A stretch of DNA of 64,000 nt from Acidobacteriota bacterium (GTDB lineage: Bacteria > Acidobacteriota > Vicinamibacteria > Vicinamibacterales > UBA823), in NCBI GenBank assembly GCA_002730525.1, contig PCAK01000040.1:124001-188000 (forward strand). Reading direction: 5' to 3'. The notes beneath the pieces are model-generated. The model did not search any database, was not told the DNA's origin, and saw only the letters and a list, made by a program, of their open reading frames with translations. Made by a program: the position numbers and the translations under genes. Shown here one piece after another: positions 1-62,269 of the stretch (position 1 is its first letter; every line of letters starts with the position of its first letter).

Positions 1-2430
1 CTCTCGGAAGTGTCGGTGTCGGTGTTGTCCGCTTACAAGCAGGGGTACAGCTGGCTCTACGACGCCGTGCGCCCGCGACTGGCCCGGCTGCCCGTAGCCC
101 GTATCGAGATTCGCTTCGCCGAGATCGGTCCGCCCCCGGGCTGGCAGCAGCAGGCGATGTTCACGCCGACACGTTGGCTGCTCGAGCTGCATCCGATCGA
201 CGAGGTCCTCGCGCGCGAACTCGACCTTCCGCTCGAGGCGATCGTGTTCGAGAAGATGCCGATCGGCTCCCCGACCTACGAAGTCATCGCCTGGGACGCG
301 GCCGGCGGCGAGCTGCTCCGGCAGACCTTCGAGCCGGCCGTCGTCGTGCGGTCGTACTTCGACCAGTTTCCGGATTACGAGAAGGTGCGGGTCACGACCG
401 GGTGGCTCGATGCACGGGTTGGTGACCGGCAGGTCGTCGACGCCCGGATCGTCACCGATCCCGAGCGATTCTGGGATCACTTTCAGGGTACGACGCTGCC
501 GGCGATCTACGACTACGTGATGGCGCTCAGCGACGGCAAGCCGCGCGCCGCCGACGCGCCGCACTTTGGCGAGCTGACGGTTGAGGTGACGCTGAGCGAG
601 CCCGACTACCAGATCGGCGTCGATCAGGAACAGATTGCGCCGATGGAGGCGCTGCACGAGGAAATCTACTTCGCGACGCTGCACTTCTTCGACGTACTGG
701 GGCGCTATGCGCGGGGGCAGGCCTTGAACTATCCGGGTCGTGTCATCCCGATCGTGCAGGCGAAGTCGGACGGCACCGCCGGCACGGCCGCCATCCGCTT
801 CACCGGGTTCAACTCCCCGCGCCCAGGCGTCGAGGTGCGTTACCGGGAAGTGGACGGCGGCGAGGGCGAGCGGCGCCTCGACATTCCGAAGGTGGTGCTC
901 GAGCGGCCCGAAGCGCTCGCGGCCTACGTGCGCGCGGGACGCGACGGGCTCGAGCGACTCGATCTGCGCGTGAAGGTCGATTCCGAGCTGGACGAGCGAC
1001 GCGAGCTCGTCAAGCGGACGCGGGCCGAACGTGTCGACGAGCAGATCATGTCGGCCGCTCAGGTCGAGGCGGTCGTCGGCCACGCCGAGCGGCTCCGCGA
1101 GGCCGGGCTCTACCAGTCGGCGCTCGCCTATGCCGATCTCGGTGAACTCCGGGTCGCGGCCGGCTGGGAGCACGACATCGAGGCCGAGACGCAGGTCGTG
1201 GCCACGTTGGTGCGCGGCGGTCGGCCCGACCCGCTTCCCGACGTTCGAGGGCTACTGCGCGGCGCCCCGGCGCGCGACCCGGATGCACCGCTGGTGCAGT
1301 GGGAAACGCCGATTCCCCCGGCGGAGGCCTACGCCATTCTGGCCGTCATGGCCGAGTATCCCGAGGCCACGACCTATCGGGTCGGCGGCAGCTATCTCGG
1401 GAAGGATGTCTGGGCGATGGACCTCATGGCGCCGATCGAGGCGTCGCACTGGTCGCACGCCAAAGCTACGACCTTCAAGCCGACCGTCGTCTACTCGGCA
1501 CGGCAGCACGCGAACGAGGTGTCGTCGACGAGTCACGTCTTGAAGTTGGCCGAGCTTCTGCTGACGGACGATGCATACGCAGCCCACCTCGACAAGGTGA
1601 ACGTCGTCATCCATCCGATCACGAACGCCGACGGCGCGCAGTTGGCCTACGACCTGCAGCTGCGCACGCCCAACCACATGCTGCACGCTGGCTACCTGGG
1701 CTCGCTGGGGGTCGATGTGGGGTCGGGGCAGTGGGACACCGACCCGATCTATCCCGAGTCGACGATCCGTGCCGACCTCTGGCGCACGTGGCTGCCCGAC
1801 ATCTTTCTCAATCCACACGGCTACCCGTCGCACGAATGGGTGCAGCTCTTTTCCGAGTACGCCGGCTGGGTGCGGAACCGCGTGACGCAGTCGCGCGACT
1901 GGTGGGGGATGCGCGGATGGTTCATGCCGGGCTTCAGCTATCTCGACGATCCGCGCTACCCGCGCCACAAGGACGCGGCGTTCGAAATCAGAGACCGGAT
2001 CACCGAGGCCATCAACGCCGCGCCGGACGTGCGCGCGCTGAATGCCCGGGCCTACGCGCGCTACCAGCGGTACGGCTTCGACCACGACGATGAGAACTTC
2101 AAACTCGATTTCTCTGACGATGTCCTGATCTATTCGGCCATCAAGGGATCGCGGCCGAGCGCCGGCAGCCGCAGCTACATGGCGCGCAACCCACGCGTCA
2201 CCATCTGGAGCGGCACGACCGAGGCGCCCGACGAAACCGCGCGCGGGCCGTGGATGGAGCTCGTCGCTACGGCCGGACTGCAGTGGGACAAGGCGATTCT
2301 CGACTATCTCTTCGAGGGTGACCACGAGGTCGAACGTGACGGCAGCGAGTTCTTCGGGGGCGTGCGCCTGAAAATGACCCGGCCGCGGCCGCCGAAGACC
2401 GACGACGATGTCCCCGACGACGAAGGCTAG
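1..2430 (+). CDS. M14-type zinc carboxypeptidase, 5' end outside the window
   Basis: Likely a zinc carboxypeptidase-fold enzyme (peptidase M14) that removes C-terminal residues from peptides or cleaves related amide bonds. The frame is open to base 1, so the protein is probably cut at its N-terminus; the first possible start inside the window is a GTG at 10, and residues are numbered from it. The zinc site is visible: H500 and E503 in RQHANEV and H603 in LNPHGYPSHEW, with an HPITNADG segment between them as in M14 enzymes. A TTEAPDE segment near the C-terminus may hold the catalytic Glu. The first 430 residues are not recognised and are probably an accessory region. The MFS gene follows after 13 nt. 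The family call is good; the substrate is unknown. Confidence 0.85.
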   Translation, partial: LSEVSVSVLSAYKQGYSWLYDAVRPRLARLPVARIEIRFAEIGPPPGWQQQAMFTPTRWLLELHPIDEVLARELDLPLEAIVFEKMPIGSPTYEVIAWDAAGGELLRQTFEPAVVVRSYFDQFPDYEKVRVTTGWLDARVGDRQVVDARIVTDPERFWDHFQGTTLPAIYDYVMALSDGKPRAADAPHFGELTVEVTLSEPDYQIGVDQEQIAPMEALHEEIYFATLHFFDVLGRYARGQALNYPGRVIPIVQAKSDGTAGTAAIRFTGFNSPRPGVEVRYREVDGGEGERRLDIPKVVLERPEALAAYVRAGRDGLERLDLRVKVDSELDERRELVKRTRAERVDEQIMSAAQVEAVVGHAERLREAGLYQSALAYADLGELRVAAGWEHDIEAETQVVATLVRGGRPDPLPDVRGLLRGAPARDPDAPLVQWETPIPPAEAYAILAVMAEYPEATTYRVGGSYLGKDVWAMDLMAPIEASHWSHAKATTFKPTVVYSARQHANEVSSTSHVLKLAELLLTDDAYAAHLDKVNVVIHPITNADGAQLAYDLQLRTPNHMLHAGYLGSLGVDVGSGQWDTDPIYPESTIRADLWRTWLPDIFLNPHGYPSHEWVQLFSEYAGWVRNRVTQSRDWWGMRGWFMPGFSYLDDPRYPRHKDAAFEIRDRITEAINAAPDVRALNARAYARYQRYGFDHDDENFKLDFSDDVLIYSAIKGSRPSAGSRSYMARNPRVTIWSGTTEAPDETARGPWMELVATAGLQWDKAILDYLFEGDHEVERDGSEFFGGVRLKMTRPRPPKTDDDVPDDEG

Positions 2431-2443
2431 CGCCGCCTGAGCC

Positions 2444-3697
2444 GTGCCCGATTCCGCCACTTCCGCACCATCCCTCCTGCACCTCGGCTGGTGGCGCGAC
2501 TCGTCGCCGACCCAGCGCCGCACCCTCTTGGCGGCGTCGATGGGCTGGCTGCTCGACTCGTTCGACGTCATGCTCTACGCGCTGGTGCTGGCCACGCTCA
2601 TGGCCGACCTCGACATGAGTGCGGCGGTGGGCGGCTCGCTGGCCTCGTTGACGCTCGCGGCCTCGGCGGTCGGCGGCGTCCTGTTCGGCGTCTTCGCCGA
2701 CCGCTTCGGGCGGGTCCGCGCACTCGTCTGGAGCGTCCTGATCTACTCGGTTTTCACCGCCGCCTGCGGCCTCGCGCAATCGGTGCGACAGCTCGCCGTC
2801 TTCCGCGTCTTTCTCGGCATCGGCATGGGCGGGGAGTGGGCAAGCGGCGCGGCGCTCGTCTCCGAGACCTGGCCCGCCGAGCATCGCGGCAAGGCCCTCG
2901 GCCTGGTCCAGAGCTCGTGGGCGATCGGCTACGCCGCGGCGGCCGTCGTGACCGCGCTCGTCCTGCCGACGTTCGGATGGCGCGCCGTCTTCTTCGTCGG
3001 CATCCTGCCGGCACTGTTCACCGTCTGGGTCCGGCGCAGCGTGGACGAGCCCGAGGTCTGGCGCGCGCGCGCGCGCGACGGCGCCACGGGCCGCTTCAGC
3101 GAGGTCTTCGCGCCAGGCCGGCGTGGCCTGACGGTCGCCGTGACCCTGATGAACGCCTGCATCATGTTCGCCTGGTGGGGCTTCAACCTCTGGATCCCGG
3201 CCTACCTGTCGCTGCCGGTCGAGCAGGGCGGCATCGGCTTGAGCGCCTACGCGATGTCGGGCCTAGTCATCGCGATGCAGGTCGGCATGTGGTTCGGCTA
3301 CGTCCTGTTCGGCTTCGTGAGCGATCACATCGGCCGGAAGCGGACCTATATCGCCTACGTCCTGACCGCGGCCGTACTGATCCTCGCCTACACCGCCACG
3401 CGGAACCCGATGGCGCTGCTCGTCCTCGGCCCGCTCGTCGCGTTCTTCGGGACCGGATCATTCAGCGGCTTCGGCGCCGTCACCGCCGAGATCTATCCGA
3501 CCGAGATTCGCGCCACGGCCCAGGGCTTTACCTACAACGTTGGCCGTTTGGCGAGCGCTGCGGCCCCGTTCGTCGTCGGCACGCTCGCCCAGACCCAAGG
3601 CTTCGCGGCCGCGCTCTCGATCGCCTCGGTGGCGTTCGTTCTGGCCGCGGTTTGCTGGATCTGGATCCCGGAGACCAAGGGGCGGGAGTTGGCGTAG
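2444..3697 (+). CDS. MFS transporter, metabolite:H+ symporter type
   Basis: A 417-residue inner-membrane carrier of the major facilitator superfamily. About 12 hydrophobic segments are visible. The loop between segments 2 and 3 has the MFS signature (FADRFGRVRALVW) and the second half has a degenerate copy (FVSDHIGRKRTYI). GMGGEWASG and the RGKALGLVQSSW region resemble the metabolite:H+ symporter and aromatic-acid carrier subfamilies. The start is a GTG 13 nt after the M14 stop, so the two genes are probably co-transcribed. A short run of alternating G and C at 3061-3075 encodes Ala-Arg repeats in the central cytoplasmic loop. The substrate cannot be told from sequence; given the neighbours, a peptide breakdown product is possible. 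Confidence 0.88.
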   Translation: MPDSATSAPSLLHLGWWRDSSPTQRRTLLAASMGWLLDSFDVMLYALVLATLMADLDMSAAVGGSLASLTLAASAVGGVLFGVFADRFGRVRALVWSVLIYSVFTAACGLAQSVRQLAVFRVFLGIGMGGEWASGAALVSETWPAEHRGKALGLVQSSWAIGYAAAAVVTALVLPTFGWRAVFFVGILPALFTVWVRRSVDEPEVWRARARDGATGRFSEVFAPGRRGLTVAVTLMNACIMFAWWGFNLWIPAYLSLPVEQGGIGLSAYAMSGLVIAMQVGMWFGYVLFGFVSDHIGRKRTYIAYVLTAAVLILAYTATRNPMALLVLGPLVAFFGTGSFSGFGAVTAEIYPTEIRATAQGFTYNVGRLASAAAPFVVGTLAQTQGFAAALSIASVAFVLAAVCWIWIPETKGRELA

Positions 3698-3754
3698 GAG
3701 GCAGGAGGCTGAATCTACCGCTGATCGTTAAACCCCTCCGGCCTCCTTCTTTGA

Positions 3755-3760
3755 TATCCT
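3755..3760 (+). promoter_or_regulatory. Possible -10 box (TATCCT) for the S9 peptidase gene
   Basis: TATCCT lies in a locally AT-richer stretch (CTTTGATATCCTG) between the MFS and S9 genes. It ends 32 nt before the ATG, which leaves room for a leader with the clear Shine-Dalgarno sequence at 3781-3788. No convincing -35 box is seen. Confidence 0.3.
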
Positions 3761-3792
3761 GCCCGGCACCCCCAATCGAGGGAAGGAGAGCC

Positions 3793-5832
3793 ATGCGCCT
3801 TCGACCGTCCGCTGCCGTCCTGCTCGTCGCCTTGCTCGTTTCCGGTGCGTTGCCGGCCCGGGCCCAGACGCCCTTCGTCAGCGACGATCTGCACCGGCTG
3901 CAGTCGGTCGGCGACGTCCAACTCTCGCCCGACGGGCGGCGGGTCGCCTACAGCGTTCGGAAGAGCGACCGGCCGGCCCGGCCCTACTCAGAGGTCTGGG
4001 TGATGGAGATCGCCTCGGGCGCCATCGTGCGGCTCGGCGGCGAGGATGGCTCGGCCTCGGGGCCGCGTTGGTCGCCCGACGGCCGGGAGATCGCCTACAC
4101 GGGCGTGGCCGAGGGGCAGTCTGGGCTCGTCGTCGCGCGCGCCGACGGCTCGAACGCTGCGTTCCTTGCGCCGATCGCCGGCACGAATCATCCGCTGCCC
4201 TCGGCGGGCGAGCGGATCGCCTGGGCGCCCGATGGCAACCGGATCGCCTTCGTCTCGGCGACCGAGGGGCCTGAGGAGGAGGCCAGCGGCGACCCGGCCG
4301 TCATCACGCGCTACCTCTACAAGCCGACCGCCGCGGAGGGCGGCACGCGGTTCAACGACAACCGCCGGGTACACCTGTTCATGGTCGATCGGTTGACCAA
4401 TCGGGTGCATCAGCTGACGAACGGGATCCACTACGAGCATTCGATTGACTGGTCGCCGGACGGTGACGAGATCCTCTTCGTCTCGAACCGCGGCGCCGAT
4501 CCCGATCGGGTCTTCAACTACGACATCTTCGCGGTACGTGTCGCCGATCAGACGATCCGGCGGCTGACCGACACCGCCAACGCCGAGTACCAGCCGCGCT
4601 GGTCGCCCGACGGAAGCACCATCGCCTATCTCGGGACCCGACGCACGCTGACGTCGTCGGAGACGACGATGGAGGATACCCACGCCTGGCTGATCGATGC
4701 CGACGGCGGCAACCGCCGCGAGATCGGTGACGAGGTGGACAACCGGCAGCGTAGCGTCGGCTGGGCCGCCGACGGCCAGTCGGTCTACTTCACCGTTCAG
4801 GCACGCGGCAACGTGCATCTGTTCAGGCTACCGGTCGCCGGCGGCTCGCCGCAGATGATGGTCATCGACCGCGGGCGCGTCGGCGCCTGGTCGGCGGCCG
4901 CCGACGGCAGCGTCGCCTACGCGTTCAGCGGGCCGGGTGCTCCGGCCGAACTCTACGTGCGTGGTGACGACGGCGCGCGCGCGCTGACGACGCTGAACGA
5001 GGAGTTCCTCGCCGAGCGCCAGGTCGCTGAGGTCGAGGCGTTCACGTTCGACAGCTTCGACGGGCGATCGATCGAGGCATTCCTGACGAAGCCGGTGACG
5101 GTGGACCCGGCGAGCCGGCACCCGCTGGTGGTCGTCATCCACGGCGGGCCGCACGGCCAGCAGGGCGCGACGTTCAACGCGAACGCGCAGGTCTACGCCG
5201 CGCGCGGGTGGGCGACGCTGATGGTCAACTACCGCGGGTCGACCGGCTACGGGCAGGAATTGGCCGACGCGATCTTCAAGGACCAGAACGGCGGCGAGGC
5301 CCAGGATGTCGTGGCCGGCGTCGACGCGGCCCTCGATCGTTACCGCTGGCTCGACGGCGACCGCCTGGCGATCGAGGGCGGCAGCTACGGCGGGCAGCTC
5401 ACGAACTGGATCATCACGCAGACCGACCGGTTCAAGGCGGCGATCCCGCGCGCCAGCATCTCGAACCTCGTCAGCTTCAACTACATGGCCTACTACCACG
5501 ACTACCTCGCCGTCGAGTTCGGCGCCTACCCGCACGAGGACGGCATCATCGATCTGCTCTGGGAGCGCTCGCCGATCCGGTACGCCGGCGACGTCACGAC
5601 GCCGACGATGTTGGCGCACGGCGAAAACGACAACGACGTGCCGATCGCCGAGGCGGAGCAGTTCTACATCGCGTTGAAGGACGTGGGTGTGGAGGCCGTG
5701 ATGCTCCGCTACCCGCGCGAGGGCCACGGGATCCGCGAGACCGCCCACCAGGTCGATCTGCTCGAACGCTCGATCGCCTGGTACGAGCGATACCTCGGCG
5801 GAAACATCACCTCCACGGCCGCTTCCCGCTGA
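3793..5832 (+). CDS. Secreted S9 family prolyl oligopeptidase-type peptidase
   Basis: A 679-residue serine peptidase of the acylaminoacyl-peptidase/DPP type. Residues 1-25 form a signal peptide ending ARAQ, followed by a PD40-type beta-propeller with repeated LSPDGRRVAY and WSPDGREIAY segments. The C-terminal alpha/beta-hydrolase domain carries S531 in GGSYGGQ, D613 in HGENDNDVP and H645 in EGHGIRE, a complete catalytic triad. The start at 3793 is chosen because GGAAGGAG lies 5-12 nt before it and the signal peptide begins there; the frame is open further upstream but only as a shadow of the MFS gene. It is one of three S9 enzymes here, probably degrading oligopeptides outside the cytoplasm. 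Confidence 0.93.
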   Translation: MRLRPSAAVLLVALLVSGALPARAQTPFVSDDLHRLQSVGDVQLSPDGRRVAYSVRKSDRPARPYSEVWVMEIASGAIVRLGGEDGSASGPRWSPDGREIAYTGVAEGQSGLVVARADGSNAAFLAPIAGTNHPLPSAGERIAWAPDGNRIAFVSATEGPEEEASGDPAVITRYLYKPTAAEGGTRFNDNRRVHLFMVDRLTNRVHQLTNGIHYEHSIDWSPDGDEILFVSNRGADPDRVFNYDIFAVRVADQTIRRLTDTANAEYQPRWSPDGSTIAYLGTRRTLTSSETTMEDTHAWLIDADGGNRREIGDEVDNRQRSVGWAADGQSVYFTVQARGNVHLFRLPVAGGSPQMMVIDRGRVGAWSAAADGSVAYAFSGPGAPAELYVRGDDGARALTTLNEEFLAERQVAEVEAFTFDSFDGRSIEAFLTKPVTVDPASRHPLVVVIHGGPHGQQGATFNANAQVYAARGWATLMVNYRGSTGYGQELADAIFKDQNGGEAQDVVAGVDAALDRYRWLDGDRLAIEGGSYGGQLTNWIITQTDRFKAAIPRASISNLVSFNYMAYYHDYLAVEFGAYPHEDGIIDLLWERSPIRYAGDVTTPTMLAHGENDNDVPIAEAEQFYIALKDVGVEAVMLRYPREGHGIRETAHQVDLLERSIAWYERYLGGNITSTAASR

Positions 5833-6588: not shown

Positions 6589-7854
6589 ATGGGTATCGAG
6601 TCGGTCCTCAACCTCGCCGCGTTCCTCGTGACGATGGCGGCGGCGTTCGGCTACCTGAACCATCGGTGGCTGAAGCTGCCGCACACCGTCGGCCTGGTCG
6701 TCATCGCGCTGTTCGCGTCCCTTACCGCGCTGCTGATCGACGCTCTGGCCCCGACGCTCGGGTTCGGTCCGGCCGTCCGCGGCGCGCTCACCGACATCGA
6801 CCTGTACGACACTTTGATGAAGGGGATGCTGGGCTTCCTGCTCTTCGCGGGCGCCCTGCACGTCGACCTCGACGATCTGCTGCAGCGGCGCTGGGCGATC
6901 TCGATTCTGGCGACCGTCGGCATCCTCACCTCCACCGCCATCGTCGGGGGCCTGACCTACGCGGGATGGCGCGCGCTCGGGTTCGACGTCGGGTGGCTGC
7001 CCTGCTTGATCTTCGGCGCGCTCATCTCGCCGACCGATCCGATCGCCGTGCTCGGGATCCTGAAGCGGCTGTCCGTGCCGCCGACGCTCGAGGCCAAGAT
7101 CGCCGGCGAGAGCCTGTTCAACGACGGCGTGGGCGTCGTCGTCTTCACCGTGCTGGCGGGGTTGGGGGCTGGCGGTGCGGCGGCGGTCGACGTCTCGCCC
7201 GTTGCGGTGGTCGAACTACTGGTTACCGAAGTGCTGGGTGGCGTCGCCCTTGGCCTCGTCGCCGGATACGTGACATACCGGCTGATGCGTCGGCTGGACG
7301 AGCACAACCTCGAGGTGATGATGACCCTCGCCCTGGTCATGGCCACGACCGCACTCGCAGCCCGATGGCACTTCTCGGGCCCGCTCGCGGTGGTCGTCGC
7401 CGGGCTCTTCATCGGCAACCACGGGGCGCGGTTCGCGATGAGCGCGAACACGCGCGAGCATATCGAGACCTTCTGGTCGTTGCTCGACGAGATCCTGAAC
7501 TCGGTGCTGTTCCTGATCATCGGGTTCGAGGTCGTGGCGTTGTCACTGAGCGGCGCGGTGGTGGCGGCCGTGGCCTTGACGATCCCGGTTGTGCTCGCGG
7601 CCAGATTCGTGAGCGTGGCCGGACCGATCACCCTGCTCCGGCCCTGGCGGACGTTCACGCCGGGTGCGATTCCCGTGCTCACCTGGGGCGGATTGCGCGG
7701 GGGCATCTCCGTGGCACTGGTGTTGTCGCTGCCACCGTCACCGGTAAGGGAACTGCTCCTGGCCGCGACCTACGGGGTGGTGATCTTCTCGATCGTTGTG
7801 CAGGGTCTGACGATCGAGCGCGTCGTTCGTCGGAGCGTCGTGGCCGCGAACTGA
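6589..7854 (+). CDS. Na+(K+)/H+ antiporter, CPA1/NhaP type
   Basis: A 421-residue inner-membrane cation:proton antiporter for pH and salt homeostasis. It has about 12 hydrophobic segments. Segment 5 contains the transport motif SPTDP (D150), and the next segment holds GESLFNDG with N178-D179, the Asn-Asp pair expected of electroneutral CPA1 exchangers. There is no long cytoplasmic C-terminal regulatory domain, so this is the short NhaP form. The gene has its own probable promoter, with TAGAGT only 6 nt upstream of the ATG. The MFS gene on the other strand ends 10 nt downstream. Confidence 0.92.
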
Positions 7855-55620: not shown

Positions 55621-58119
55621 TCATTGTTCAATCCACCAGACCGAGCAGGTCGGATCCGGCATCAGGTAGTCCATGCCCGTGTCGCCGATCGGTGCGCCCG
55701 GCGGCTCCGGCGGGGGCGCCGGCTGGCCGAACGCCTCGGCGGGCCGCTCGAGGAACCGCGTGATGTCGCGCGCGAGCAAGGAGGCGTGCGCGCGCTCGCC
55801 GTTGCTGCCGCTTCGTGATTCGCGCCCGAGGCGCGCGGCGAGTTCCTCCAGTTCGAGGGACGCCACCGCGCGCACCTGCGGCATCGCAGCGCTGTCCGCC
55901 AGGCGCGTGATCCGGTCGACGACGACGTGCTCGACGGCTCGGCCGATCTCCGCTTCGTAGTCGTTTACCGGCGCGACATCGAAAGTCCCGGCGATGATGG
56001 TGTCGAGCACCTCATCGAGGCCAGGCAGGCCCGGTGTCACGGCGTGTTGGGTCACCATCCGCGCGGCGCGGTCGCCGCGAAGGATCATCGCCACGGTGTG
56101 ATCGGCGGCGACGACGGCCGGTGAGATCGGATCGAACATCAGCCCGGTGTACCGCGGAAACAGTTCTCGATGACGCCCGAATCCCGCCGGCCGCGGCGGC
56201 AACCGGTCGATGACGTCGTCAGGAACGGCCAGTTCGCCCGGACTGATCGCCCGCATCAGTGCATCTAGTGCGGCACGCTGTTCAGCGGCCGGGACCCCGA
56301 CGACCGGCTCGCGCCCGTCGCCGCGCATCGCGTAGATGTAGTGCATCCCCCCGATCGCCGAGGCCGCCGCGTCGATCTGGAACCGGTGGTGGAGGTAGAG
56401 CGGCACGAAGACCTCTTCCATCGTCGCCAGCGGCATGTCGCGGCGGATCGCCGCCTCCCCGAAGTCGGTCATGGCCGTGCGCCGGACCTCCAGCATCCGA
56501 TTCAATTCCGTCGCTGGATCGACGCCGTTGGCCCACTGATGCACCCGCGGGTTGGCGTCGAGGTCCTGGTTCGTCAGGTAGATCAGGTCCTGGTTCCACG
56601 CGTCATCGAGAATCTGCTGCAGCGCCGTCGGTTCGTCGACGCCCTGCGGGTAATCCCGGTAGCCGTAGTTGATGGCCACCTTGTCCCAGTCGCCGATGCC
56701 GACGTCGTAGGCGTCGGACACGTCGATCGTCCCGTCGTCGTCGAGCGTGATGAGCGGGTGCGGATAGTCGAGCACCGAGATGCGGCCTTGCGTACTCGCG
56801 TAGTAGTTGTGCCCGAGGCCGAGCGTGTGGCCGACCTCGTGCGCCGAGAGTTGCCGGATCCGGGCCAGCGCCATCTCCGACAGCTCGGACGGCATCTCGT
56901 CACCGCCCTCGTACGGCGATAGCAGCCCTTCGGCGATCAGGAAGTCCTGCCGCACCCTGAGCGAGCCCAGCGTGACGACGCCCTTGATGATCTCGCCAGT
57001 CCGCGGGTCGGTGACGCCGCCGCCGCCGCTCCAGCCACGGGTCGACCGGTGCACCCAGTTGATGACGTTGTAGCGGATGTCGAAGCTGTCGGCGCCCTCC
57101 GGCAGCAGTTCGACGCGGAACGCGTCGCGGTAGCCCGCGGCTTCGAACGCCTGGTTCCACCACTGTGCGCCCTCGAGGAGTGCCGAGCGCACCGGTTCCG
57201 GCGTGCCGCGGTCGAGGTAGTAGACGATCGGCTCGACAGCGTCGCTGACCGCGGCCATCGGGTCGACCTTCTCGAGCCGATGCCGCCTGATGAGTCGCTT
57301 GACCATCGAGTCGCCGAGCGGCGTCGAGTAGTCCTGCCACGACACGCTCCCGAACCCCGACCGCGGATCGCAGGTGCGCGCCTCGTAGCCCGGTCCGGGC
57401 AGCTGGACGAACGAGTGATGCTGGCGCAGCGTGACGGCCTCGGCCGCCGGCGTGACGTCGGCAACACCGTGCCGCCGTTCGTTGCGCGGCCCGAACCCTC
57501 GGCGGCCCTGCGGCTGACTCGTGAAGGTCACCGTGACGTCGATCTCCGAGTTCTGCGGGAAGCCCTTCGTCCGGTCGAGATGGATGGCGCTGCGCGATGG
57601 GTCGACGCGGTACTGGCCGTCCTGGCTCAGCCGCGGCACGATGCCGTGCGTGTCACGTAGCAGAAAGTCGGTCGTGTCGACCAGAACGCGGCCATCGGTC
57701 TCGGCGCCGACCGTGAAGCCCCAGAGGATCGATCGGGCGAACGCGTCCTCAACGGCCTGCCGCTCGTCCGGATCGTCGGTGCTGGCCCGGAACTGGTAGT
57801 TCCGCTGCACCATGAGAATCTTCGGGCCGATGCGTTCGAAGACCACCAGCCGCGATCGGGTCTGGCCACGGTCGAGGCCGATGTCGTTCGATCCCAGCCC
57901 CGCCGAGAGCCCCGACAGGTAGAGCTCCTCGCTGTCGAAGCGGGAGATCTCCAGCCAGAGCGTTCCGGCAGCGTCGTCCCAGTACATTGGGAAGTAGCCG
58001 GCGATCGTCTGCATGCCAGCCGTCTTGTCGGCGATGGTCGGCATCTCCTGCGCGACGGCGCCGGTTGGCGCTACGATGGACGCGGCGAAGATGGCGAGGC
58101 CGAGGGTGCGTTTGAACAC
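55621..58119 (-). CDS. Secreted zinc metalloprotease, DUF5117 type
   Basis: An 832-residue exported metallopeptidase of the DUF5117/DUF5118-containing group, common in Acidobacteria and Bacteroidetes. The metzincin-like zinc site is H427-EVG-H431-TLGLG-H437 in SAHEVGHTLGLGHNYY. A GTG start at 58119 is chosen because GGAGGT precedes it and a signal peptide (FKRTLGLAIFAASIVAPTGAVAQ) begins there; an ATG at 58152 has no ribosome binding site. WNQAFEAAGYRDAFRVELLPEGAD is another family block. It probably degrades proteins outside the cell. The S9 peptidase upstream ends 41 nt away on the same strand. Confidence 0.9.
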   Translation of the reverse strand: MFKRTLGLAIFAASIVAPTGAVAQEMPTIADKTAGMQTIAGYFPMYWDDAAGTLWLEISRFDSEELYLSGLSAGLGSNDIGLDRGQTRSRLVVFERIGPKILMVQRNYQFRASTDDPDERQAVEDAFARSILWGFTVGAETDGRVLVDTTDFLLRDTHGIVPRLSQDGQYRVDPSRSAIHLDRTKGFPQNSEIDVTVTFTSQPQGRRGFGPRNERRHGVADVTPAAEAVTLRQHHSFVQLPGPGYEARTCDPRSGFGSVSWQDYSTPLGDSMVKRLIRRHRLEKVDPMAAVSDAVEPIVYYLDRGTPEPVRSALLEGAQWWNQAFEAAGYRDAFRVELLPEGADSFDIRYNVINWVHRSTRGWSGGGGVTDPRTGEIIKGVVTLGSLRVRQDFLIAEGLLSPYEGGDEMPSELSEMALARIRQLSAHEVGHTLGLGHNYYASTQGRISVLDYPHPLITLDDDGTIDVSDAYDVGIGDWDKVAINYGYRDYPQGVDEPTALQQILDDAWNQDLIYLTNQDLDANPRVHQWANGVDPATELNRMLEVRRTAMTDFGEAAIRRDMPLATMEEVFVPLYLHHRFQIDAAASAIGGMHYIYAMRGDGREPVVGVPAAEQRAALDALMRAISPGELAVPDDVIDRLPPRPAGFGRHRELFPRYTGLMFDPISPAVVAADHTVAMILRGDRAARMVTQHAVTPGLPGLDEVLDTIIAGTFDVAPVNDYEAEIGRAVEHVVVDRITRLADSAAMPQVRAVASLELEELAARLGRESRSGSNGERAHASLLARDITRFLERPAEAFGQPAPPPEPPGAPIGDTGMDYLMPDPTCSVWWIEQ

Positions 58120-58160
58120 TGATACCTCCGGGGTTGTCTGCTGACGAAACATTCGCTGGA

Positions 58161-60191
58161 CTACTGGCCGGCGTCGGTCATCCGATCGCCCGTCGTCCCG
58201 TACTTCTCGAACCACTGACGCAGGTAGAGCTGCGTCCGCATGAAGTTCGACGGTCGCGACCCGGTGCCGTGCGACTGGTTGTTGTAGCGCAGGAGCGCCG
58301 TCGGCACCTTCCGGAACTTCAGCGCGCGATAAAACTGCTCGGCCTGCGTGATCGGCGTCCGCAGATCGTCCTCACCGGTGATGAGCATCGTCGGCGTCGT
58401 GACGCTGCCGACGTGGAAGATCGACGAATGCGCGATCCATAGCGTCGGGTCCTCCCACGGCAGCTGCGGGAACCGGTAGTACGGCAAGATGTCGGTCGTG
58501 CCGCTCGTGCTCATCCAGTCGACGATCGTGCAGTTCGACGACGCGGCCGCGAAGCGATCAGTCTTCGTGACGATCCACGCCGTTAGGATGCCGCCGCCGC
58601 TGCAGCCGGTGACGAACAGGTTCTCGGGATCGACGAAGCCCGTCTCGAGCATCGTGTCGACGCCGGCCATCAGGTCCTGGTAGTCGGGACCGGGGTAGGC
58701 GTCGGCGATCATGTTGCCGAACGCGCTGCCGTATCCGGTGCTGCCACGCGGATTGGTGAACAAGACCACGTAGTCGTTCGCCACGTGCTCCTGAAAGCCG
58801 TAGTTGAAGCGCGCGCCGTACATGCTGTGCGGACCGCCGTGGATGTGGAGTTGCAGCGGGTAGCTCCGGTCCGAATCGAAATCGGGCGGCGTCAGATACC
58901 AGCCCTGGACGCGCACGCCGTCAGGCGCGGTGTACCAGACTTCGGTCGTCTCTCCCAGCGCGACGCCGTCGAGGATGTCGTCGTTGACGTGCGTCAACTG
59001 ATCTCGCTCGGCCGGTGAGGCGAGATCGAAGGCGACGATGTCGGTCGGTCGGTCGAAGTCGGTCAAGACCCCGACTGCCTGGCCCGCCTCGTTGATGTCG
59101 GTCACGGTCAGCGTGTGGACGCCTTCGGTCACCGGCGTGACCGGGCCGCCACTCGCCGCGATGCGATAGAGGTTCTGTGTTCCCTCGTTCTGTGCCGAGA
59201 AGTAGAGGGTGCCGCCATCGGCGCTCCACCTGACGTTGCGTGGCGAGCGATCCCAGTCACCCGAGATCAGGCGGGCGTTCGAGCCGTCGACGTTCACCAC
59301 ATACAGCTTGCTGTCGATCCAGGAATCTCGCGTCCAGTCGTAGCCGGTGTAGGCGATCCGGGTACCGTCGGGCGACACCTTCGGCTGCTGGTCGGGGCCC
59401 TCTCGGTCGGTCAACTGGGTCACGTCGCCGCTCGCCACGGCGACCGAGTAGATCTCCGACTCCCGGAAATGGTACTCGGCATCGTCGAGGCGCAGGCCGC
59501 TGAAGACGATCGCGCGGCCGTTCGGTGTCCATTCGACGTTGGTGTGGTTGTAGCCGCCGTCGGTAATCTGCCGAGCCGTGCCGCCGTCGGCGGGTACGAC
59601 GAAGATATGCCGCCAGCCCTCGTCGATGTAGCCGACGCCGTCCTGCCGATACCGGAGCCGTTCGACGATCTTCGGCGCTCCGGTCCACGTGGCGCCCTCC
59701 GGACGGCTCGGTAGGTCGATCGACCAGTTCGTCTTGTCGTCCACCATCATCGTGAAGGCGATGCGCGACCCGTCGGGGGACCAGGCGATGTTGGACGGGC
59801 CATTGTCGATGCGCGTGACCTGCGTGACGGCGCCCTCATCGTCCATCCAGCGGACGAAGACCTGCCGGCCATCCGGATCGCCCGATGCAATGAAGGCGAT
59901 GCGATCGCCGCTGGGCGACCACCGCGGGCTCGAGCCGTCGACGAGGAACCGGTTGCGGCTTCCGTCGCGGTTGACGATCCAGAGCGACGACTCGCGCCGG
60001 TCGTTCATCTTGTCGAACCACTGCCGCGTGTAGACGACCTGGCGTCCGTCCGGTGAGAGCCGCGGGTCGGTCACTGATTCGAAATCGAGATACGTCGCCA
60101 GATCGAGCTTGCGCGTCTCGAGCTGGGCCTGCGCGGCAGCCGGCCAGAGGACGGCGCCTGCGAGCACGAGCGACAGCACACGGTTGATCAT
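58161..60191 (-). CDS. Secreted S9 family peptidase
   Basis: A 676-residue exported serine peptidase. The signal peptide ends AAAQAQ (about residue 22); PD40 repeats (LSPDGRQVVYTRQW, WSPSGDRIAFIA, VSPDGTRIAYTG) form the propeller; the hydrolase domain holds S531 in TGCSGGG, D609 in TGEDDLRTP and H641 in NQSHGTG. The nucleophile elbow GCSGGG differs from the more usual GGSYGG. The start at 60191 follows a purine-rich Shine-Dalgarno sequence; the frame is open far upstream only as an antisense shadow. It may be co-transcribed with the metalloprotease, giving a protease plus oligopeptidase pair. Confidence 0.92.
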   Translation of the reverse strand: MINRVLSLVLAGAVLWPAAAQAQLETRKLDLATYLDFESVTDPRLSPDGRQVVYTRQWFDKMNDRRESSLWIVNRDGSRNRFLVDGSSPRWSPSGDRIAFIASGDPDGRQVFVRWMDDEGAVTQVTRIDNGPSNIAWSPDGSRIAFTMMVDDKTNWSIDLPSRPEGATWTGAPKIVERLRYRQDGVGYIDEGWRHIFVVPADGGTARQITDGGYNHTNVEWTPNGRAIVFSGLRLDDAEYHFRESEIYSVAVASGDVTQLTDREGPDQQPKVSPDGTRIAYTGYDWTRDSWIDSKLYVVNVDGSNARLISGDWDRSPRNVRWSADGGTLYFSAQNEGTQNLYRIAASGGPVTPVTEGVHTLTVTDINEAGQAVGVLTDFDRPTDIVAFDLASPAERDQLTHVNDDILDGVALGETTEVWYTAPDGVRVQGWYLTPPDFDSDRSYPLQLHIHGGPHSMYGARFNYGFQEHVANDYVVLFTNPRGSTGYGSAFGNMIADAYPGPDYQDLMAGVDTMLETGFVDPENLFVTGCSGGGILTAWIVTKTDRFAAASSNCTIVDWMSTSGTTDILPYYRFPQLPWEDPTLWIAHSSIFHVGSVTTPTMLITGEDDLRTPITQAEQFYRALKFRKVPTALLRYNNQSHGTGSRPSNFMRTQLYLRQWFEKYGTTGDRMTDAGQ

Positions 60192-60308
60192 GGTTCCCCC
60201 TCCTGGAAGCCCCCTTTTTATCACCTTCGCCTGGTCCGTGCGGTATAACCAGTCTTCGCGCCGGCCAGGGTGCCGTCGTCGGAAGGTCATTCGATCGAAG
60301 GACGAACC
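60192..60308. promoter_or_regulatory. Divergent region between the S9 gene and the chimeric gene
   Basis: This 117-nt gap contains a TATAAC box at 60244-60249 on the plus strand, 59 nt before the chimeric gene, and a CCCCCTTTTTATCACC stretch at about 60212-60227 that would be A-rich on the minus strand. GAAGGA at 60297-60302 serves the chimeric gene. Both genes therefore have leaders with Shine-Dalgarno sequences. Confidence 0.3.
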
Positions 60309-61334
60309 ATGCCGCATCTGCACCGCTGTTTCGCGCTTTTCGCGCCGCTGCTGCTCGTCTGGATGTCCGCGTTGGCCGAAGCGCAGACGTTCGACCTCGT
60401 CATCCTGAACGGCCACGTCGTCGACGGCTCGGGCAGCCCAGAGTTCCGAGCCGATGTGGCGATCCGTGGTGACACGATCGAGGTGGTCGGCCGGCTCGAC
60501 AGCGTCTCGGCCCGTCGGGTCATCGATGCGACCGGACGGCTCGTGGTACCGGGCTTCATCGACATGCACTCGCACGCCGACCGAGCGCTCTCGTCGAACG
60601 ACCGGCGGTCGCGTGAAGTCTACAATCTTGTGGCCCAGGGGATTACGACGGTCGTCTTCGGGCCCGACGACCGAAATCCCATCTGGCCGATCGAGGACGA
60701 GATCGCCGCGTATCGTCGTGGCGGGACCGCGCTGAACGTCGTGCCGATGGTCGGCCACGGCACGGTGCGCGGCGAGGTGATGTTGCCGCTCGCCGACCGG
60801 CTCGTAGCGCTGAAGCGCGAGGTCGAACAGCGAACGACCGGACTCCCCATCGAACCCGCGGCGGCACGGCACTCGATCCTGATGCTGGGCGGTCGCGTCG
60901 AGGGAGGCAGCAACTTCAACCTGGTGCCGGGGGAGTGCACGTTCACCGTCGACCGCCGGCTCAATCCCGATGAGGATCTGGACACCGAGCGTCGGAGACT
61001 CTTCGACGTGCTCGACCAGGCGCGAGACGCGGGCGCCGGCCTCGATGTCGAGGTGATTCAGGAGGGCCGGTCGTCGGAGACGTCCGCGGAGGACCCGCTG
61101 GCGCGGTCGCTGGCGTCCAACATCGAGGCCGTGAACGGCCAGCCCGCCCGGTTCGAGATGTGTCCCGGACTCCTGGAGATCAGGTTCTACGCGGAGCGCG
61201 GCATTCCCGCGCTGGCCTACGGGTCGGGCCTGCTCTCGGTGTCGCATGGACCGAACGAATTCGTGAAGTTGGACGACGTGAATCGCGCCGCGGCGGTGTA
61301 CGCGCTGACGGTCGCCGAGTTGTTACGAACGTGA
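60309..61334 (+). CDS. Chimera: N-terminal half of D-aminoacylase-like amidohydrolase fused to C-terminal half of an M20 peptidase
   Basis: A 341-residue open frame. Residues 1-25 form a signal peptide. Residues about 27-157 match the start of a D-aminoacylase-like amidohydrolase: DLVILNGHVVDGSGSPEFRADVAIRGDTI, then FIDMHSHADRAL with the HxH metal site, ending at MVGHGTVRGEVM. From about residue 159 (60780 onward) the sequence is instead the end of an M20 peptidase: GGRVEGGSNFNLVPGECTFTVDRRL (dimer/lid domain) and GLLSVSHGPNEFVKLDD with the last zinc His. Each enzyme lacks half of its metal site, so activity is doubtful. It looks like a deletion that joined two neighbouring genes in frame, or an assembly error. 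Confidence 0.8.
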   Translation: MPHLHRCFALFAPLLLVWMSALAEAQTFDLVILNGHVVDGSGSPEFRADVAIRGDTIEVVGRLDSVSARRVIDATGRLVVPGFIDMHSHADRALSSNDRRSREVYNLVAQGITTVVFGPDDRNPIWPIEDEIAAYRRGGTALNVVPMVGHGTVRGEVMLPLADRLVALKREVEQRTTGLPIEPAAARHSILMLGGRVEGGSNFNLVPGECTFTVDRRLNPDEDLDTERRRLFDVLDQARDAGAGLDVEVIQEGRSSETSAEDPLARSLASNIEAVNGQPARFEMCPGLLEIRFYAERGIPALAYGSGLLSVSHGPNEFVKLDDVNRAAAVYALTVAELLRT

Positions 61335-61357: not shown

Positions 61358-62209
61358 ATGACCATCTTAGGTGCGCTCGTTGCTTTGACGGTGATGACCG
61401 CGGCGACCGCCGATGCCCAGATCGTCGAACGCCAGACGACGGTCTACGATTTCGATATCCACTATTCCGAGGTCGGCACTGGTCCACCGATTGTCGTGCT
61501 CCACGGCCTGTGGGGTGGCCGGAACGAATGGGAGCCGGTCATCGAGCCAATCGGAAGTGATCACCGGGTGCTGATCCCTGACTTGCCCGGCTTCGGAGAT
61601 TCGGACAAACCGCTGGCCAATTTTCACAACGCGCTTCTCGCGCAGTTCGTCATAGGCTTCATGGATGCGCTTGATCTTCGCCGGGTGACCCTGGCGGGAC
61701 ACGCAATGGGTGCGAATCTCGCCACCTTCATGGCCGCCCACCATGGCGACCGCGTCGAACGCCTGATCCTCGTGGATGGCGCCGGCTATCAGCGTGACGA
61801 GCCACGCCGTGGCCCGCTGCCGACTCCGTTCGTCCGCACCGTGACCGGCTCGACGATTGCCGCGACGAAGACGTTCCTCAGGCGACGCGTCGAGAACGAC
61901 GCCCTCGTGACCGATGCCTGGGCGGAGGAGGCGTTCGTCCGCTGGCTGAAATCGGCCGATGCCATCGAACAGATGCTGGAGGTGGGGGGAGAAGTGACCG
62001 CGGAGGAGATGCGCGGCATCCAGGTGCCGACGCTGATCGTCTGGGGGCGCGAGGACGGCGTCAGCAACGTCGCCACCGCGGACCGTGTCCATGCCGACAT
62101 CGTCGGATCGCAGCTCGTCATCCTCGATGGCTCCGGGCACTTGCCTCAATTGGAGAAGACCGAGGAATTTCTGTCGGCGGTGCAGAGCTTTCTGGGAGTG
62201 GCTCGATAG
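61358..62209 (+). CDS. Secreted alpha/beta-hydrolase fold protein lacking the nucleophile serine
   Basis: A 283-residue exported protein with a signal peptide ending ATADAQ and the full alpha/beta-hydrolase layout: IVVLHGLWGGRNEW (oxyanion strand), DLPGFGDSDKP, the nucleophile elbow, WGREDG (D233) and DGSGHLPQ (H261). At the elbow, where GHSMG is expected, the sequence is AGHAMGAN: residue 116 is Ala (codon GCA). Asp and His remain. The start follows AGGAAGG. Either it has lost hydrolase activity and binds a ligand, or it uses another mechanism, or the base is wrong (TCA would be Ser). It may be co-transcribed with the chimeric gene 24 nt upstream. Confidence 0.85.
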   Translation: MTILGALVALTVMTAATADAQIVERQTTVYDFDIHYSEVGTGPPIVVLHGLWGGRNEWEPVIEPIGSDHRVLIPDLPGFGDSDKPLANFHNALLAQFVIGFMDALDLRRVTLAGHAMGANLATFMAAHHGDRVERLILVDGAGYQRDEPRRGPLPTPFVRTVTGSTIAATKTFLRRRVENDALVTDAWAEEAFVRWLKSADAIEQMLEVGGEVTAEEMRGIQVPTLIVWGREDGVSNVATADRVHADIVGSQLVILDGSGHLPQLEKTEEFLSAVQSFLGVAR

Positions 62210-62269
62210 CTCCGCGGGTTCCTCACTGATCGGAGCGGAGGAGACCGTCCTCGAAGCGTCGGGCTACCA

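Follow-up and report, generated by a model that had tools for sequence, protein, structure and literature searches.

The window, the whole 64,000-nucleotide stretch of contig PCAK01000040.1 that was analysed, contains an open reading frame on the plus strand at 60,309–61,334 (341 codons, no internal stops), flanked by a divergent S9 peptidase gene and an alpha/beta hydrolase gene. The original prediction described this ORF as an in-frame chimera of an amidohydrolase N-terminal half and an M20 peptidase C-terminal half, and the open 341-aa frame together with Pfam and PDB matches on both sides confirmed that reading. The N part (60,309–60,782, plus strand, residues 1–158) is the start of a D-aminoacylase-type amidohydrolase including its signal peptide. 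The C part (60,783–61,331, plus strand, residues 159–341) comprises the end of the lid domain and the C-terminal catalytic part of an ArgE/DapE-type M20 peptidase. The two parts meet in frame at M158 (60,780–60,782). The signal peptide and the ribosome binding site of the fused ORF were read by eye.

Domain searches placed the Pfam family Amidohydro_3 at residues 70–115 and Peptidase_M20 at residues 145–336, the latter covering only profile positions 112–205 of 206. M20_dimer matched residues 195–238, covering only profile positions 59–102 of 107. Because the M20 profile is entered only at position 112 and the dimerisation (lid) profile only at position 59, the M20 part begins inside the lid domain. 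A PDB search with the fused ORF matched D-aminoacylase (1v4y/1m7j) over residues 24–118, with a weaker second stretch at 129–164. A full-span match to a plasmid M20 protein at 24% identity was set aside as a usual M20 match whose alignment had been extended over the N part.

The metal ligands that each enzyme would need were then located in the hybrid. The HxH motif predicted for the D-aminoacylase-like front is present as H87/H89 and aligns to the D-aminoacylase of known structure; this pair and the Asp of a GPD motif (D120) are the only remnants of the amidohydrolase site. The remaining ligands, two His and an Asp from later strands, are absent, and so is a complete barrel, the alignment stopping at residue 158–164. 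In the full-length aminoacylase of the related genome G001, aligned to 1m7j, the later metal-ligand segments fall beyond residue 158; in 1m7j we take these ligands to be His220, His250, and Asp366. The M20 site retains one His, H313 in SVSHGPNE, which is aligned in M20 homologues. The prediction of an M20 lid domain followed by the C-terminal zinc-ligand region from about residue 159 therefore held for the C-terminal His and only partly for the lid, which is incomplete, its first part with the GKPAHVG His being gone. The N-terminal M20 ligands (HxD, bridging Asp, DEE) are missing from the hybrid, whose homology to the intact M20 protein of locus L058 starts at residue 219 of that protein; its HxD, ADMK, and DEE motifs all lie before this residue. 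The DapE ligand segments in the lost stretch are AGHTDVVP, ADMKG, and DEE, and the ligand roles of the HxD, ADMK, and DEE motifs are presumably those generally known for DapE. Since most metal ligands of both enzymes sit in the missing segment, neither amidohydrolase nor M20 activity would be expected of the hybrid, in keeping with the predicted loss of both.

The source of the two parts was evident in G001, the only other genome of the same genus that was compared, whose locus L052 carries both genes. On a single contig, the N part matched a long frame of 688 codons between stops; about 1.8 kb further along the same strand lay the match to the C part. Counted from its first ATG, the G001 aminoacylase ORF has 623 aa, or 577 aa from the start equivalent to that of the window; it matches D-aminoacylase 1m7j, and the M20 gene is next on the same strand. 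Amino acid identity to the G001 genes was 76.6% for the N part, over the matching part of the full-length aminoacylase, and 77.6% for the C part. In DNA alignments, window positions 55,733–60,782 matched positions 1–5063 of reversed L052 at 87%, and 60,773–61,324 matched positions 6897–7448 at 75% without gaps. These two colinear blocks are offset by 1843 bp of L052, and this segment is absent from the window exactly at the join. The original prediction had raised a deletion between adjacent genes and had proposed looking for a D-aminoacylase gene followed by an M20 gene at the same site in related genomes; G001 supplied that pair, as separate neighbouring genes in a close relative, with a clean gap at the join.

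The junction itself (60,774–60,782, plus strand) reads GAGGTGATG in the window and is a short homology of the break sites. To the left of the join, G001 has GACGTGATG and G004 has GAGGTGATG; to the right, G001 has GAGGCGATG, GATG being common to all. Comparing the left side of L054 with the right side of G001, GAGGTGATG and GAGGCGATG agree at eight of nine bases, and at the join the two parent genes each have an ATG, in the same reading frame.

The hybrid is a real sequence feature, and its origin is an ordinary deletion fusion. We consider it probable (roughly 0.84) that neighbouring D-aminoacylase and M20 genes were fused by the loss of about 1.84 kb and that the product is dead or near-dead. 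The ancestor of the genus, judged from G001, would have carried a gene for a secreted D-aminoacylase-type amidohydrolase followed by an M20 peptidase gene on the same strand. In the lineage of the window, about 1.84 kb (relative to G001) would then have been deleted, with the ends in the short similar sequences GAGGTGATG and GAGGCGATG and their shared in-frame ATG, possibly by slippage or microhomology-mediated joining. This would have taken away roughly the last two thirds of the aminoacylase gene, the spacer between the genes, and the front half of the M20 gene. What remained would have stayed in frame by chance (one in three), giving a single 341-aa ORF that would since have been under little or no selection. 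Elsewhere in the genome, amidohydrolase paralogues are about 31–45% identical to the N part and may make the loss tolerable.

The same gap could be produced by an assembly error, with some 1.84 kb passed over during assembly or a minority strain merged into the contig where the parts meet. Three points would allow such an error: the genome is a draft in 45 contigs, the sister species has the intact pair, and a second assembly of the species did not turn up. However, the break sites resemble each other over at most nine bases with a mismatch, fewer than an ordinary overlap in an assembly graph would need; no other contig carries the missing segment, and the 283 kb contig is colinear with G001 on both sides of the join. 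We therefore regard an assembly error as unlikely. Relocation of the missing segment within the genome was rejected, as the segment was not found elsewhere in its own genome at the DNA level; at the protein level, its paralogues there are only 35–42% identical.

Other genomes bear on the direction of the change. A full-length aminoacylase lies at the same syntenic place in G002, G004, and G007, all of the same family, which supports a deletion as the direction we infer. In G004 and G007 the aminoacylase is followed by the same next gene, and the approximately 1.27 kb from the join point to this next shared gene is taken up by the remainder of the aminoacylase, so these genomes have no M20 gene there. 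Their lack of it suggests that the M20 gene was gained (or was lost in the others) before the deletion occurred in the lineage of the window. The reverse order, in which the fusion came first or belongs to an established family and the two genes became separate later, has a negligible chance of being right: no point in its favour was found, and it is contradicted by the full-length aminoacylases that G001, G002, G004, and G007 carry in matching synteny and by full-length M20 homologues in other places. Among the matches listed, no protein with both halves in one frame was found in a whole-protein search of 100 relatives, in a search with the M20 part of 162 genomes of the order, or in 80 GTDB loci, searches that a weak, distant fusion could escape. 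An established aminoacylase–M20 fusion family was accordingly rejected, with no second genome among the matches listed having both halves in one frame, and literature searches turned up nothing specific to such a case.

The N part was also closer to aminoacylases of Gemmatimonadota MAGs (59–67%) than to most of those of its own order outside the family (mostly <51%, among the matches listed). From sequence similarity, this likeness may reflect horizontal transfer of the aminoacylase.

The state of the hybrid was compared with that expected of a dead remnant. It showed no visible decay and no stops, a point against that explanation. At positions conserved among homologues, the N part departed at 0 of 25 and the C part at 5 of 46, two of the latter being common to G001. 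Relative-rate tests were mostly not significant: the N part had 8–10 changes in the window against 3–5 in G001 (chi2 about 2), and the C part was mixed, pointing both ways, so decay on the branch of the window was rejected. Pairwise dN/dS between the window and G001 was 0.17 for the N part and 0.14 for the C part. In simulations, about half of neutral ORFs stayed open at 0.05 substitutions per site and only about 6% at 0.2. With the conserved positions mostly intact and the ORF open, either the deletion is young or there is some constraint on the hybrid.

Constraint would be expected if the fusion had become a new working protein that selection maintains, whether through a metal site formed anew or in a binding role. 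The open, in-frame ORF with its mostly intact conserved positions, the low pairwise dN/dS, and the small share of neutral ORFs that stay open at the higher divergence all agree with such a protein. Against this, it occurs in one genome only among the matches listed, both catalytic domains are cut internally and not at domain borders, and most of the window–G001 divergence behind the pairwise rates probably predates the deletion; a recent deletion explains the missing decay equally well. We consider a functional fusion very unlikely, and the specific case of an expressed and selected protein with a mixed metal site (H87/H89/D120 plus H313) or a non-catalytic role slightly less likely still. The deletion is probably young, which is the simpler reading, and the fused ORF is most likely an inactive leftover, not a new kind of protein.

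The dS values of the two parts against G001 (0.86 and 1.11) were about twice those of the flanking S9 peptidase and esterase genes (0.48 and 0.42), whose products are 93% and 92% identical to those of G001. Expression-linked codon constraint or recombination may account for the raised dS in the fused ORF.

The locus has also changed in other ways. The M20 gene of G001 (L052:5538–6640, minus strand) appears broken by a frame change and the loss of the stretch around the DEE motif. Compared with the intact L058 protein, residues 20–141 lie in one frame and those from about 174 onward in another; what should join them, DEE motif included, is either absent or in the wrong frame. Judged from its sequence, this gene too looks broken, through a change of another kind (unless the sequencing is at fault), and its breakage in the sister species as well suggests that the M20 gene is dispensable in the genus. 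Directly after the fused ORF, the alpha/beta hydrolase gene (Abhydrolase_1; 61,358–62,206, plus strand) is absent from the G001 site, where the alignment ends at 61,324 and resumes at 62,268. With this absence and a best G001 match of only 25% identity, the gene was either gained here or lost in G001.

The locus illustrates clearly, through synteny, how a deletion that joins adjacent genes can yield an in-frame chimera, one that automated annotation might take for a novel domain architecture. Little is learnt about new enzyme function unless the hybrid proves to be kept. Compared with D-aminoacylase (PDB 1m7j; amidohydrolase superfamily, Amidohydro_3), the N part is alike, including HxH, and is about 42–77% identical to the full-length homologues of relatives, whereas the aminoacylase sequence breaks off in the hybrid at residue 158 of about 577, without most of the barrel and the later ligands. 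The C part resembles M20 enzymes of the ArgE/DapE type (DapE 3ic1; 5-nitroanthranilic acid aminohydrolase 5k8p), including the SHGPNE His, and is 64% identical to the intact 422-aa M20 ORF in L058, whereas roughly 218 residues are missing from its front, and with them HxD, the bridging Asp, DEE, the Glu that follows, and the beginning of the lid domain. The closest comparison is the D-aminoacylase and M20 gene pair of G001, with the same neighbours, order, and orientation and with both halves aligning without rearrangement; unlike the window, G001 retains the 1843-bp middle, and its own M20 gene is frameshifted and without the DEE segment.
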